Shown here piece by piece: positions 22,918 through 36,429 of a stretch of 36,429 nucleotides of DNA. Both the position numbers and the translations under genes were made by a program. Position 1 is the first letter of the stretch. Each line of letters begins with the position of its first letter. The notes under the pieces were generated by a model that worked only from the letters and a program-made list of their open reading frames with translations, searched no databases and had not been told where the DNA came from. This stretch comes from Bacteroidia bacterium. GTDB lineage: Bacteria > Bacteroidota > Bacteroidia > B-17B0 > Aurantibacillaceae. The stretch is from contig JAEUTM010000500.1 in the NCBI GenBank assembly GCA_016788025.1, positions 1 through 36,429 on the forward strand, written 5' to 3'.

Positions 22918-23370
22918 CTAATAAACCTCAGCTAATTCTATGTCGAAAATGAGAACAGAGTTGGCAGGAATATCCCCCACTGCCTGGTTCCCGTATCCTA
23001 AAGCGGAAGGAATAAGAAGAATGCCCTTGCCCCCTTTTTTGAAATAGGGAATTCCTTCGGTCCAGCCTTTAATTACGTCCTGAAGATTGGTTGTATATCC
23101 GTTTGCTCCACTTTGATCGAATACCGTACCGTCTGTTAAATAACCTTTATAGATAACCCTTACAGTTGATGTGGAGCTGGGTTTAGCGCCTGTTCCCTGC
23201 GTTTTAACAACATAATAAAGTCCAGTGCCTGTAGCTGTTGCTTCAAGCTTATTGTCTGCAATATACTGAGTGATCTTATTTTCGTCCTCCTCTTTTTGGT
23301 TAACAGTTTCTTTTTTCTTACAAGCAGAAAAACAAAGAAGTACACAAATAGCCCAAAGTAGTCTTGTCAT
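22918..23370 (-). CDS. FKBP-type peptidyl-prolyl isomerase lipoprotein
   Basis: 150 residues. The ATG at 23370 gives a lipoprotein signal (MTRLLWAICVLLCFSAC, lipidated Cys17). A longer version starting at 23403 would begin upstream of the -7-like box TATATTTA (23397-23390). The Cys is followed by KKKE, not the acidic export signal described for surface lipoproteins of Bacteroidota, so it probably faces the periplasm. The FKBP fold occupies about 60-150: VRVIYKGYLTDGTVFDQS, VIKGWTEGIPYFKKGGKGIL, IPSALGYGNQAVGDIPANS, LIFDIELAEV. It would accelerate proline isomerisation in exported proteins. It is divergent from the endonuclease gene at 23451. Confidence 0.9.
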   Translation of the reverse strand: MTRLLWAICVLLCFSACKKKETVNQKEEDENKITQYIADNKLEATATGTGLYYVVKTQGTGAKPSSTSTVRVIYKGYLTDGTVFDQSGANGYTTNLQDVIKGWTEGIPYFKKGGKGILLIPSALGYGNQAVGDIPANSVLIFDIELAEVY

Positions 23371-23450
23371 AATTTTCACAATAGGTTTGTAAATATACTC
23401 CATTAAGGCTTAACTTAGATTCTCTAAACTTTAATTCTTAAAATCACACC

Positions 23451-31815: not shown

Positions 31816-32310
31816 CTATTTGTTTTTAAGAGATTCCAGGTAGTTGTTCTGGTAGTTTGCAATTGTTTTGATCCCAATCAACGCAATGATCTCTGTTATT
31901 TCTCTGTCAGAAAGATTTTCCTGTAAAGCATCCCTCACCTGAGCCGGGTAAATATCAGAACCTGCATAATAAATATTCTCCGTTGCTTCGAGCAAAGTTC
32001 TAAGTCTCTCAGACTGCGGATTTCCATTAGCTATTATACTTTTGATGTCTTCTTCATTCATTCCTTCCTTTTTAAGAAGATAGCTGTGGCCTTTAATACA
32101 AGAGGTGCATTTATTCAGTACTGAGATTTTAAGTTCGATTGCATTTATTTCAAGGGAGTTGAACGAGGCTCCTTCCATAATTCGGTTTGCCTCGGTAAAT
32201 ACATAGGCAGCCTGCGGGCTTCTTTCTGCCAGTTCTTTTACAATCCCAGGAACGACTCCGAAGATTTGCATGGCGTGTTCAAACACGAGTTTTTGATTAA
32301 TTGTTTCCAT
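31816..32310 (-). CDS. AhpD-like / carboxymuconolactone decarboxylase family protein
   Basis: 164-residue all-helical protein. The redox motif is LNKCTSCIKGHSYLLKKEG with Cys68, Cys71 and His75, and a Glu lies ahead of it (about 54-59), as in the AhpD proton relay. Members of this fold with CxxC-x3-H act as alkylhydroperoxidase-type disulfide reductases. AhpD itself works with the peroxiredoxin AhpC, which is not present in the window. It is the last gene of an NTF2-like/DUF6526/AhpD row (3-base gap to DUF6526), downstream of a Crp-type operator. Confidence 0.85.
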   Translation of the reverse strand: METINQKLVFEHAMQIFGVVPGIVKELAERSPQAAYVFTEANRIMEGASFNSLEINAIELKISVLNKCTSCIKGHSYLLKKEGMNEEDIKSIIANGNPQSERLRTLLEATENIYYAGSDIYPAQVRDALQENLSDREITEIIALIGIKTIANYQNNYLESLKNK

Positions 32311-32313
32311 AAT

Positions 32314-32742
32314 TTACACGCGCATATTATCTGCTTTCCAATTTTTAATGCTTTGTTTAATCTGAACCGGACTTAAAGTCGTGGTTTTTTTGTCTTCCAT
32401 CAGGTTAATGAACTCGTCATCCGGAGCAAAACGCAGAGCTAAAATTTGAGCTGTTGAAAGCTCTGTTTCCCTGCTATCCGCATTCTTACCGCTTAAAAGA
32501 AAATACCTAAGTCTAAATTCAGAGTGAATGATTCTGTCCTGGTTCTTTTTAGCGTATTCCCGCGTTAAAAATGCAATCAGGTGAATAAAGACTGCAACAA
32601 TCAATAACAGTCCATTGGTAATGGAGAGCTGCATCCAGAGATTGAAAATAGCTGCAAGGATCAAAACAAGCGAAACGGGTACGACAAAATAGTGATAGAT
32701 CGGATGGATCCTCCTGTGATTTTTAAAATTTTGATTTGTCAT
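32314..32742 (-). CDS. DUF6526 family membrane protein
   Basis: 142 residues. The N-terminal pattern QNFKNHRRIHPIYHYFVVPV (4-23) with two hydrophobic segments (VPVSLVLILAAIFNLWM; NGLLLIVAVFIHLIAFL), then REYAKKNQDRIIHSEFRLRY, matches DUF6526 as I recall it. The C-terminal half is soluble and helical. Function is unknown. It lies 3 bases before the AhpD-like gene and 11 bases after the NTF2-like gene, so the three form one unit. Confidence 0.75.
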   Translation of the reverse strand: MTNQNFKNHRRIHPIYHYFVVPVSLVLILAAIFNLWMQLSITNGLLLIVAVFIHLIAFLTREYAKKNQDRIIHSEFRLRYFLLSGKNADSRETELSTAQILALRFAPDDEFINLMEDKKTTTLSPVQIKQSIKNWKADNMRV

Positions 32743-32753
32743 CTTAATTTAAA

Positions 32754-33116
32754 TTAATGGTTTGTTATTTCCGGCATATCGTTTACGACAAGCCAGCTGT
32801 CATTTTTCTTTGAAAGGTTTAGATAACTCCGCATGGTCATGTGCTCATTCTTTGTGATCAGCGAAACAATCGCCATTTCTTTTTCATGTTCGATAAACCG
32901 AACGTCAATTGTTCTTTTGGTGCCTCCTACCCTTTTTTCCTTTATCATGTTTAGGTATTGTTCCCTTGATAAAACAAGATTGGAATTTGTTTTGTTGAAG
33001 TTTGGAATTACAACTCTGAAGTTTTCGTCGAGGAAGTCAGCGACCGTTTCTGCGTTTTGTTGATCTATTTGCTGAATATATACTCTCAGCATATCGTCTA
33101 TTTTTTCTTTTTCCAT
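32754..33116 (-). CDS. NTF2-like (SnoaL/lumazine-binding-type) small protein
   Basis: 120 residues. The ATG at 33116 is chosen over a GTG at 33149. It begins with the two-helix part typical of NTF2-like folds (IDDMLRVYIQQIDQQNAETV), then strands FLDENFRVVIP, the loop LSREQYLNMIKEKRVGGTKR, and MRSYLNLSKKNDSWLVVNDM. Such proteins are small cone-shaped enzymes or ligand binders, and the substrate is unknown. It is the first gene after the Crp-type palindrome at 33206-33223, which sits about 90 bases before the start. Confidence 0.72.
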   Translation of the reverse strand: MEKEKIDDMLRVYIQQIDQQNAETVADFLDENFRVVIPNFNKTNSNLVLSREQYLNMIKEKRVGGTKRTIDVRFIEHEKEMAIVSLITKNEHMTMRSYLNLSKKNDSWLVVNDMPEITNH

Positions 33117-33177
33117 TGCTTTTATTTTGTTAAGGCTTATCAGAGACACACGCGTTTATCTTCTTCTTAAGCCGTTA

Positions 33178-33223
33178 CAAAGTTGAGAACATAGAAATGC
33201 ACCGCTTGTGATTTAAATCACAA
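33178..33223 (-). promoter_or_regulatory. Crp/Fnr-type operator with promoter of the NTF2-like operon
   Basis: TTGTGATTTAAATCACAA at 33206-33223 is a perfect 18-base palindrome containing TGTGA-N6-TCACA, the E. coli CRP consensus. On the minus strand a -7-like box CAACTTTG (7 of 8 positions) lies at 33185-33178. The palindrome centre is therefore about 40 bases before the expected start of transcription, the usual place for a class II activator. The gene for a Crp-family protein ends 27 bases upstream. Confidence 0.75.
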
Positions 33224-33249
33224 TCGTAATCTGCTTTGAAATTTTGTGT

Positions 33250-33855
33250 TTATTGGCCCGAACGGGCTGATTTACTGCGAATGCGGCTTAAGGTTTCTCT
33301 GCGGATACCCATAAATGACGCAATATACTGAAGAGAAACTCTCTGAAATAAAGAAGGAGATTTCTGCAATAAAAATTTATAACGCTCCTCGGGATCATAC
33401 AAGGTATACATATCCTTCAGCTCATTTTCTTCTACAATCATTGTTTCAAGGATAGCTCTCCCTACTGCCTGAAGTTCAACGGATTGGTCGTATAAAGACA
33501 TGAGCTCATTACGGCTTAACTTTGCGAATTGCATGGGTTCGAGTGCCTGAACATTGATTGTAGAAACACTTTGTGTCGACAAACTTTTCATATTTGTTAC
33601 ACAGACTCCCTCGAGATAAAGACCCGTCGTAATTTCATCTCCATCTCTATTGGAGTAGGATCTTGCACTTCCGCTAAAGATATAATAAACATGCTGACAG
33701 ATCTTACCTTCTTCGATGAACCGCTCCCCTTTGTTACAAGAGCCAACGCTCACTATCGGCTTCATTAGCTTCCAGGTTTCGTCGGAAAGCGGCGCATGCG
33801 CGCTAACAAATTTTCTGTAGGATTCCAATATCTGCTCTGCGTAGGTGTTTTCCAT
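33250..33855 (-). CDS. Crp/Fnr family transcriptional regulator
   Basis: 201 residues. The cyclic-nucleotide-binding-type beta roll covers about 30-125 (FIEEGKICQHVYYIFSGSAR is the conserved beta turn). The phosphate-binding part (GLYLEGVCVTNMKSL) does not match the classic GELAL...RSA cassette, so the ligand may not be cAMP. A long dimer helix follows. The HTH near 173-193 has the recognition helix IRRETLSRIR, with Arg186, Glu187 and Arg191 aligning with Arg180, Glu181 and Arg185 of E. coli CRP, which read TGTGA. A perfect TGTGA-N6-TCACA site lies just downstream, before the NTF2-like operon. It has its own promoter at 33904-33872. Confidence 0.9.
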   Translation of the reverse strand: MENTYAEQILESYRKFVSAHAPLSDETWKLMKPIVSVGSCNKGERFIEEGKICQHVYYIFSGSARSYSNRDGDEITTGLYLEGVCVTNMKSLSTQSVSTINVQALEPMQFAKLSRNELMSLYDQSVELQAVGRAILETMIVEENELKDMYTLYDPEERYKFLLQKSPSLFQRVSLQYIASFMGIRRETLSRIRSKSARSGQ

Positions 33856-33936: not shown

Positions 33937-35748
33937 TTATTGTGCCTCTAGCTGTTTAGCCATACGCTTACGCTCGTTCTCGTCGAGATAGATTTTTCTC
34001 AAACGAATAAAGTTTGGCGTAATCTCAACGTATTCGTCGCGTTGAATGTATTCCATCGCTTCTTCCAGGCTGAATTTAATTTTTGGAGCAATACGCATTT
34101 TTTCGTCCGTTCCACTCGCACGCATGTTGGTTAATTGTTTCTCTGTACAAACATTTACCACTAAATCATCCGGACGAATATGCTCTCCGATGATCATGCC
34201 AGGATAGATTTCTTCTCCTGCTTCTACGAAGAATTTTCCGCGATCTTGCAGTTTATCAATACTGTAAGCAACGGCCGTTCCTTTGTCTTTACTGATTAAC
34301 ACCCCAGCGATACGACTTGGAATGTTTCCTTTCCATGGTTCGTAAGCCTTGAAGCGGTGTGCCATAATAGCTTCCCCTGCAGTGGCAGTTAATACGTTGT
34401 TACGCAAACCGATAATTCCACGTGAAGGAATTTCAAATTCCATGTGTACTAAATCGCCTTTTGGCTGCATCACAAGCATATCGCCTTTACGCTGACTCAC
34501 AAGGTCAATTACCTTAGACGAAGATTCCTCAGGAACGTCAACCGTTAAAACCTCAATTGGCTCACATTTAACGCCATCAATTTCTTTAATAATTACCTGA
34601 GGCTGTCCTAATTGTAATTCGTAACCTTCACGACGCATCGTTTCAATCAATACCGATAAGTGAAGGATACCGCGTCCGAAAACTAAATAAGAATCAGGTG
34701 AAGATGTTTCTTCAACGCGCATTGCCAGGTTTTTTTCAAGTTCTTTATATAAACGATCACGTAAGTGACGCGAAGTCACAAACTTTCCGTCCTTGCCGAA
34801 AAAAGGAGAGTTGTTAATTGTAAACAACATGCTCATCGTTGGCTCGTCAATATGCATGGTCGGCATGCCTTCCGGATTCTCAAAATCAGCAACGGTATCA
34901 CCAATTTCAAATCCCTCGATACCGGTAAACGCACAAATATCCCCAGCAGTAACTTCAGAAACTTTTACTTTTCCCAAACCGTCAAACACATAAAGTTCTT
35001 TGATGCGTGATTTCTGAACACTGCCATTACGTTTTACTACGCTCACAGGCATGTTTTCTTTAATAGTACCACGATACACACGACCAATTGCTATACGACC
35101 GATATAAGTAGAATAGTCTAGTGAAGTGATCTGGATCTGTAAAGTTCCCTCGCGTTTTGGCGCAACAGGTATTTTCTCAAGAATAGTATCCAATAAATAA
35201 GTGATGCCATCGGTTGGTGTTTTCCAATCCGGACCCATCCAGCCTTGTTTACTTGAACCGTAAACAGTCGGGAAGTCTAATTGATCTTCGTTAGCTCCTA
35301 GATTAAAGAACAAGTCAAACACTCCGTCATGCACTTCGTCTGGACGACAGTTTGGTTTATCTACTTTATTGATAACCAACACTGCTTTTTTACCAGCTGA
35401 AATTGCTTTTTGCGTTACGAAACGTGTTTGTGGCATCGGTCCTTCGAATGCATCCACTAAAAGGATAACACCATCGGCCATATTCATGACGCGCTCCACC
35501 TCACCACCAAAGTCCGCGTGGCCTGGGGTGTCGATAATGTTAATTTTGGTTCCTTTATAAGTTACCGAAACGTTTTTAGCGAGAATAGTAATCCCGCGTT
35601 CACGTTCCAGGTCATTATTATCCAGGATCAGCTCCCCTGTTTGTTGGTTTTCACGAAATAATTTGCAGGTGTGCAGAATCTTGTCAACCAAAGTAGTTTT
35701 ACCGTGGTCAACGTGGGCAATAATGGCGATGTTCCTAATTTCAGACAT
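33937..35748 (-). CDS. typA: Ribosome-associated GTPase TypA/BipA
   Basis: 603-residue translational GTPase related to EF-G, involved in ribosome assembly and stress or low-temperature growth. The GTPase domain has P-loop AHVDHGKTT (11-19), switch ERERGITI, DTPGH and NKVDK. EF-G-like domains II, III and V follow, with DEPTMSMLFTINNSPFFG, HLSVLIETMRREGYELQLGQ and GDLVHMEFEIPSRGIIGLRN. The BipA-specific C-terminal domain includes GTAVAYSIDKLQDRGKFFV and TPNFIRLRKIYLDENERKR. Length is normal. It is a single gene with its own promoter (35767-35799) and terminator. Confidence 0.97.
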   Translation of the reverse strand: MSEIRNIAIIAHVDHGKTTLVDKILHTCKLFRENQQTGELILDNNDLERERGITILAKNVSVTYKGTKINIIDTPGHADFGGEVERVMNMADGVILLVDAFEGPMPQTRFVTQKAISAGKKAVLVINKVDKPNCRPDEVHDGVFDLFFNLGANEDQLDFPTVYGSSKQGWMGPDWKTPTDGITYLLDTILEKIPVAPKREGTLQIQITSLDYSTYIGRIAIGRVYRGTIKENMPVSVVKRNGSVQKSRIKELYVFDGLGKVKVSEVTAGDICAFTGIEGFEIGDTVADFENPEGMPTMHIDEPTMSMLFTINNSPFFGKDGKFVTSRHLRDRLYKELEKNLAMRVEETSSPDSYLVFGRGILHLSVLIETMRREGYELQLGQPQVIIKEIDGVKCEPIEVLTVDVPEESSSKVIDLVSQRKGDMLVMQPKGDLVHMEFEIPSRGIIGLRNNVLTATAGEAIMAHRFKAYEPWKGNIPSRIAGVLISKDKGTAVAYSIDKLQDRGKFFVEAGEEIYPGMIIGEHIRPDDLVVNVCTEKQLTNMRASGTDEKMRIAPKIKFSLEEAMEYIQRDEYVEITPNFIRLRKIYLDENERKRMAKQLEAQ

Positions 35749-35799: not shown

Positions 35800-36017
35800 T
35801 TATAGCCACTTAAGAGCCAAAAAACCGTTAAATAATTGTGAATTAACGCCTCTGCATAAGAATCCAGGCTTTTTTTGCCCCCGCGCTCTTTAAGCGCCGA
35901 CCTTTTCGGGATCACCCTGTGTTCATTTACAGTTTGGTTTTCATATAATTTTAACGGGGCAATTAATCACCTGAAATCGTTTAGGATCCTTTCAGTTTTA
36001 GACCTACTGGATGAAAA

Positions 36018-36046
36018 TTTGCTTAATCTTTTTTATAATATATTTG
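36018..36046 (+). promoter_or_regulatory. Promoter of the VOC gene, leaderless type
   Basis: TTTG at 36018-36021, a 17-base spacer and an exact TATATTTG (36039-36046) end only 6 bases before the ATG at 36053. Transcription should start at or next to the start codon. Confidence 0.6.
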
Positions 36047-36052
36047 CTGCCT

Positions 36053-36429
36053 ATGAGCAAGTATATTATATCCGGTATTCAACAGGTTGGCATTGGAGTG
36101 TCCAATGTTCATGAAGGTTTTAAATGGTACAACAAACATTTCGGTATGGACATTCCTATCTTCGAAGAAGCAGCAGAAGCTAACCTGATGTTGCCTTACA
36201 CCGGTGGCAAACCTCATAAACGACATGCGATACTTGCCATTAACATTAAAGGTGGTGGTGGTTTCGAGATCTGGCAGTATACCAGTCGTACACCTCAAGC
36301 TTCTGCTTTTAAACCTCATTTAGGGGATCTTGGCCTTTTTTGTGCGAAAATAAAAACCGACGATATTCACGCAACTTATAATTATTTACAGTCACAAAAA
36401 GTAAAATTGCTTGCGAGTATTTCCGAAAA
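36053..36429 (+). CDS. VOC (glyoxalase/bleomycin-resistance) superfamily protein, 3' end outside window
   Basis: Open for 125 codons to the window edge with no stop, so the gene is cut by the window, not broken. It starts MSKYIISGIQQVGIGVSNVH, the first beta strand of a VOC module, followed by EGFKWYNKHFGMDI, the helix and FGM turn of the family. AILAINIKGGGGFEIWQY gives the end of the first module and a second begins at LGLFCAKIKTDDIHATY. In metal-dependent VOC enzymes the first strand usually carries a His ligand; here the aligned position is Gln11. The substrate is unknown. Confidence 0.83.
   Translation, partial: MSKYIISGIQQVGIGVSNVHEGFKWYNKHFGMDIPIFEEAAEANLMLPYTGGKPHKRHAILAINIKGGGGFEIWQYTSRTPQASAFKPHLGDLGLFCAKIKTDDIHATYNYLQSQKVKLLASISE

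Follow-up and report, generated by a model that had tools for sequence, protein, structure and literature searches.

The current work indicates that a short Crp-like regulator of 201 amino acids is very probably a local class II activator, which would bind a palindrome next to its own stop codon and serve the operon that follows. The regulator is encoded on the minus strand at 33250..33855 of the window, the whole 36,429-nucleotide stretch of Bacteroidia DNA analysed here. Comparison of sequences reveals that the site is present and conserved, that it keeps a fixed spacing to a promoter-like element and that it covaries with the recognition helix of the adjacent protein. Taken alone, the pairing of regulator and palindrome would be nothing unusual as a local regulatory circuit. 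The layout is not peculiar to this locus; across the sequences compared, it appears to be standard in a large family of Bacteroidota regulators.

The palindrome and its position

The sequence TTGTGATTTAAATCACAA, located at 33206..33223 and not assigned to a strand, is an exact 18-base dyad in the sequence and in a pattern scan, which bears out the TGTGA-N6-TCACA element of the initial annotation. It lies 26 nt past the stop codon of the regulator, between this codon and the operon, with regulator and operon genes all on the minus strand, and it is kept in two orthologous loci (L002 and L087). When the whole 4.13-Mb assembly was scanned, it was the sole TTGTGA-N6-TCACAA without mismatch. A chance palindrome beside an unrelated regulator might be suspected, as base composition predicts about five exact TGTGA-N6-TCACA sequences in a genome of this size; however, the figure is only about 0.04 for the window and 0.00016 for this intergenic gap. 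The orthologues keep the dyad at an exact spacing and the same position recurs across the family, leaving chance with an almost negligible probability. A second site in the window, with one mismatch (23364-23381), falls within the first part of a peptidyl-prolyl isomerase-like gene and resembles background.

Twenty nucleotides past the 18-mer stands CAACTTTG (33178..33185, minus strand), a predicted -7 promoter element resembling TAnnTTTG, the consensus of the Bacteroidota -7 element (PMC7366714). Its TTTG begins 33 nt from the dyad centre. With the transcription start placed a few bases past this box, the dyad centre would fall near -41, the class II position. The palindrome had been described as lying beside the regulator, centred about 40 bases before the operon start. 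It does adjoin the regulator, on the downstream side of the regulator gene and upstream of the operon, outside the regulator's own promoter. The distance holds for the transcription start predicted from the -7-like box, relative to which the class II-like position is supported, but not for the ATG of the NTF2-like gene (33116), which is 99 nt from the centre.

The regulator protein

The regulator joins a cNMP-binding fold (PF00027, 42.4 bits against a Pfam cut-off of 27.5) to a helix-turn-helix whose final element is the recognition helix, R186-E187-T-L-S-R191; the Arg-Glu-x3-Arg residues noted earlier at 186, 187 and 191 are thus confirmed in the 201-residue protein. Its AlphaFold2 model (pLDDT 95.9) matches the structures of FNR, CRP and NtcA, with E values down to 3.7e-13. 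In this model the helix 186-199 is the last element; the helix-turn-helix is present, the chain stops at the recognition helix and the beta wing of canonical CRP is absent. No Pfam match to HTH_Crp was obtained for the protein. The cNMP-binding-like domain corresponds to the sensor domain of the CRP/FNR superfamily, and the base-reading residues of the R180/E181/R185 type (here R186, E187 and R191) occur together with a matching operator, TGTGA-N6-TCACA. As modelled, the regulator appears to be a wingless variant of the CRP/FNR superfamily and not a canonical member.

The activating signal is probably not cAMP. The CRP equivalog NF008732 (NCBIfam) was not reached by the regulator, which scored 17.8 bits against a cut-off of 266. 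The phosphate-binding pattern of the cAMP-type pocket, GEL...RS, is not present in the protein, in which residues ~78-104 read YLEGVCVTNMKSLSTQSVSTINVQA. The FNR model NF008365 was not reached either (20.9 bits against 228), and an N-terminal cysteine cluster of the FNR type is absent, the only cysteines being C40, C53 and C85. Cys53 is nearly invariant in the alignment of the family that shares the RET recognition helix, which makes a redox or thiol signal conceivable.

Comparison with known regulators

E. coli CRP resembles the present system in fold, in the R-E-x3-R residues, in the TGTGA-N6-TCACA consensus and in a site centred about -41; unlike CRP, the present protein has no C-terminal wing, no recognisable cAMP-type pocket and apparently a single local target. 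HcpR of the Desulfovibrio type is also a member of the Crp/Fnr superfamily, with the operator wTGTGAnnnnnnTCACAw, the same R180/E181 code (PMC1274295) and a local regulon beside its own gene. HcpR, however, controls the hybrid cluster protein and senses nitric oxide via heme, whereas the present regulator is shorter and wingless, and no hcp lies beside it, the target genes being Lumazine_bd_2, DUF6526 and CMD. The closest solved relative by sequence is 3dn7, a cyclic nucleotide binding regulatory protein of Cytophaga hutchinsonii (E 2e-11, residues 14-195). It is also among the fold neighbours of the model and shares the short architecture but has the recognition helix TPEYLSE, and the 3dn7 entry names neither operator nor ligand. 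Crp-Pg of Porphyromonas gingivalis, a Crp homologue likewise from Bacteroidota, needs no cyclic nucleotides to bind a CRP-like box but is described as a global regulator binding its own and the mfa promoters (PMC12040651).

Orthologous loci

Orthologues of the regulator, each ~59% identical, were found at two further loci, L002 (genome G021; identical in sequence to L088, JAJONO010000024.1) and L087 (Chitinophagales UWPOB_CHIT5). The gene order is regulator-DUF6526-CMD in L002 and regulator-NTF2-like-CMD in L087. Alignment of the intergenic DNA of the three loci retains two blocks only, the dyad and CAACTTTGTA. The orthologous dyads take the forms TTGTGATTTAAGTCACAC and TTTTGATTTAAGTCACAA; in both loci TTKTGATTTAARTCACAM is followed by exactly 20 nt and then CAACTTTGTA. 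The gap is exactly 20 nt in 3/3 loci, and most of those 20 nt differ. The persistence of the palindrome where the genes are kept, proposed in the initial annotation as its own test, was thus found in two orthologous loci. These also support the pairing of regulator and palindrome, for which the phylum-wide family comparison provides the stronger evidence.

Operators at the stop codon in the RET family

A first contig scan with the single regulator protein as query found nothing. RET-helix relatives were then aligned, and an alignment-based contig scan gave 80 loci, from named genomes of Chitinophaga, Pedobacter, Chryseobacterium, Spirosoma, Larkinella, Sphingobacterium, Dyadobacter and others. 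In most of the 80 loci, TGTGA-N6-TCACA lies 3-20 nt past the stop codon of the regulator. Removal of near-identical proteins left 78 RET regulators, 67 of which have the site, with at most two mismatches, in the interval from -9 to +51 relative to the stop codon; the control counts at the same tolerance were 2/78 ahead of the start and 6/77 in the region farther downstream. The TGA stop codon doubles as the TGA of TGTGA in five RET loci (L107, L131, L133, L167 and L173). Autoregulation through the regulator's own promoter was considered and rejected, as none of 83 RET regulators has a site with at most one mismatch in the 300 bp upstream.

The spacing to the promoter is equally regular. Among 60 aligned RET sites, TTTG begins at +34 from the dyad centre in 44 and at +33 in 9. 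This regularity bears on whether the site activates or represses. A repressor at the -41 site could block the -33 contact, or could halt read-through from its own gene, and a signal would release it; the site does separate the regulator gene from the operon and shares bases with the -33 region, and an activating surface is not verifiable here. The rigid distance of 33-34 nt to the -7 box in 53/60 sites is, however, the mark of direct contact with RNA polymerase from a class II position, and a roadblock would allow variable spacing. Repression is therefore regarded as unlikely, and activation is preferred.

The same 60 relatives speak against an RNA feature. A perfect dyad just past a stop codon could represent a terminator, or a hairpin at the 3' end of the mRNA of the regulator, and not a protein site. 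Yet the arms are constant in these relatives, whereas central pairs 1-3 are complementary in only 57%, 38% and 70%, a T5 run follows the dyad in only 5/60, and the arms vary with the helix of the protein. The hairpin or terminator reading was rejected because of the non-complementary dyad centres, and is considered very improbable.

The proteins encoded downstream of 68 RET loci with the site are for the most part SnoaL-like (32 with SnoaL_2 and 26 with SnoaL, which are overlapping sets) or glyoxalase-like (21); Glycolipid_bind accounts for six. The site is missing in 11/78 RET regulators. Seven of these eleven, mostly of Chryseobacterium (L114, L116, L117, L118, L143, L152 and L158), form a group in which the ATG of the next gene is 20-54 nt away in six, the six with an identified next gene; six next-gene proteins of this group match Glycolipid_bind.

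Recognition helices and their operators

A further 100 paralogues, chiefly from related genomes, were added. Regulators with helices other than RET often carry another palindrome at the same position and with the same spacing to TTTG. The correspondence is as follows: RET with TGTGA, QET with TTTTGA/TCAAAA, PET with CTTGAT/ATCAAG, QVS with TTTATC, PVS with CTTATC, DTS with CTTGCC, TVH with GATAAC, RPS with GTAAC and RRT with GAGAC. Sites were also picked by symmetry (at least 5/6 pairs) and spacing alone, with their letters ignored. Under this rule a dyad with TTTG was present at the stop codon in 51/78 RET regulators and 48/125 regulators with other helices; of six control regions, one inside the gene, one antisense, two upstream and two farther downstream, each gave 0 or 1.

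The letters of these sites follow the helix. In CRP numbering, residue 180 predicts base 7 (R with G in 14/17, P with T in 22/24) and residue 181 predicts base 5 (E with G in 26/34, V with A in 7/8). Over 62 clusters, 0/5000 permutations reached either value; the clustering reduces the shared ancestry among regulators, of which some remains. In E. coli CRP, residues 180 and 181 make base contacts, and the correlation was reported earlier (PMC1274295, PMC12531629). Rodionov et al. (2005) described a matching correlation at the same two residues for HcpR, DNR and NnrR, and the R180/E181 code is therefore not new (PMC1274295). As a correlation between sequences, the covariation serves as independent confirmation that the adjacent protein would read the adjacent site.

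Two observations among the relatives may be added. The QET regulators (L009, L025, L028, L208, L222, L235 and others) carry TTTTGA-N6-TCAAAA in the corresponding position, which amounts to a natural switch of specificity by one residue. At L080:1504-2998, a relative with the RRT helix precedes an ArsM-like methyltransferase, and TTTTGGGACATTTGTCCTTT follows its stop codon.

Predicted mechanism

A signal-dependent dimer of the regulator would form and bind the palindrome past its own stop codon through Arg186, which would contact the outer G of TGTGA, together with Glu187 and Arg191. The bound dimer would lie ~41 bp upstream of the transcription start, beside the -7 box, and a good -33 element would not be needed. 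From the class II position it would touch RNA polymerase and switch on the NTF2-like/DUF6526/AhpD-like operon. In this scheme we infer the binding by a dimer, the activation in preference to repression, and the transcription start itself.

Scope within the genome and other possible binders

In this genome the regulator appears to serve this operon only. A perfect dyad followed by TTTG at +33 occurs at one place, ahead of this operon; near matches genome-wide are about twice as numerous as those of a reversed-pattern control and mostly unconvincing. The search for further copies thus supports the one-operon reach of the circuit, which had been called self-contained. The assembly is a MAG with 91.6% completeness and 5.1% contamination, and further sites may therefore be missing. 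Such regulators are numerous in Bacteroidota genomes, with 13 matches in this one and as many as about 25 in a relative. Paralogues in the present genome bear sites of their own, for example TTTTGATCTGGATCAAAA at C121 (QET), CTTGATCTGGATCAAG at C296 (PET) and TTTGACATATGTCAAA at C563 (QET), which supports separate one-operon circuits.

Another Crp/Fnr protein might be the main binder, with the adjacent regulator acting elsewhere or sharing the site. R-E-x3-R also occurs in two winged-type Crp proteins encoded in the genome, C276 with ARETLVR and C510 with HREAISR, and they are possible candidates for binding the same sequence. The gene of the HREAISR protein (L307, G000:C510) is transcribed divergently from a persulfide dioxygenase/rhodanese-like gene. 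A search of 295 genomes gave 25 strict TGTGA sites that have this promoter spacing and none of the reversed pattern; 3 lie behind a RET regulator, 1 behind another Crp/Fnr protein, and most are not beside a short regulator. The motif and the promoter spacing are therefore common to other Crp/Fnr proteins. Such strict sites elsewhere precede thioredoxin, persulfide-dioxygenase-like and DUF983-like genes that have no short regulator. Against another main binder, the covariation of site and helix across the short family tracks the adjacent protein, non-RET regulators bear other palindromes at the same place, and the site travels with the orthologous regulator in three genomes. A different main binder is thus quite unlikely, and the adjacent regulator is retained as the predicted one.

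The sites with the same spacing ahead of DUF983-like zinc-ribbon (L276, L277, L278 and L294), thioredoxin (L292 and L298) and persulfide-dioxygenase-like (L299) genes, names that are our reading of the N-termini, perhaps belong to a separate sulfur/redox Crp regulon.

The downstream operon

The three genes of the operon, all on the minus strand, agree with the NTF2-like/DUF6526/AhpD-like assignment made initially. The first (32754..33116) encodes an NTF2-like fold of the Lumazine_bd_2 family (PF12893, 29.9 bits against 22.1). The gene may instead begin at a GTG at 33149, which would lengthen it, and homologues at the same position are 33% identical in L087 and 28% in L075. The second (32314..32742) encodes DUF6526 (PF20136, 159 bits), with a 56% identical homologue in L002. 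The third (31816..32310) encodes a CMD/AhpD-like protein with CxxCxxxH (PF02627, 33.0 against 23 bits), and its homologues in L002 and L087 are 56-58% identical. It reaches the AhpD core model TIGR00778 (30.0 against 27.8 bits) and stays below the cut-offs of TIGR00777 (16.9 against 191.95) and TIGR01926 (37 against 81.8 bits).

The CxxCxxxH motif is kept in all three orthologous loci, and its retention would suit peroxide or thiol chemistry. Small-molecule chemistry fits the products, which are NTF2/SnoaL folds and AhpD-like proteins here and glyoxalase-like proteins in relatives. A role of the operon in small-molecule or redox chemistry is accordingly proposed by inference, and a detoxification role of the predicted circuit is plausible.

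DUF6526 was considered as a marker of the operon and rejected. It is found in 44/395 genomes of the class; in those examined besides the genome of the window, no regulator or CMD gene was found within 1.5-3 kb and no palindrome with at most one mismatch. DUF6526 is thus not tied to the regulator-palindrome switch. A glyoxalase-family gene (36011-36427) begins close to the window's end, on the far side of a large GTPase gene (33937-35748); no Crp site was seen next to the glyoxalase-family gene.

Implications of the stop-codon layout

As a class, the wingless Bacteroidota Crp-like regulators are reasonably likely to be one-operon switches, with the operator fixed at the regulator's own stop codon and at a set distance from the promoter of the next gene. 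Each member of the family would therefore label its own binding site. If true, hundreds of diverged helices would make up a natural table of protein-DNA recognition. The target and operator of most such regulators could be predicted from one locus, dozens of natural helices would be available for testing the R180/E181 code, and the lists of targets (SnoaL/NTF2-like, glyoxalase-like and AhpD-like) would suggest where the signals might be sought. Placed where it is, the operator may in addition curb read-through from the gene of the regulator. In the open-access papers searched, which did not include the 2013 survey of CRP/FNR target motifs (PMC3590769), no description of this stop-codon layout was found, and priority is not established; the open-access literature searched likewise gave no functional description of this class of regulators.

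Two longer regulators of the winged Crp/Fnr type, L274 (PREVISR) and L290 (PREVITR), have a TGTGA site at or overlapping the stop codon, and the layout may therefore extend past the short family.
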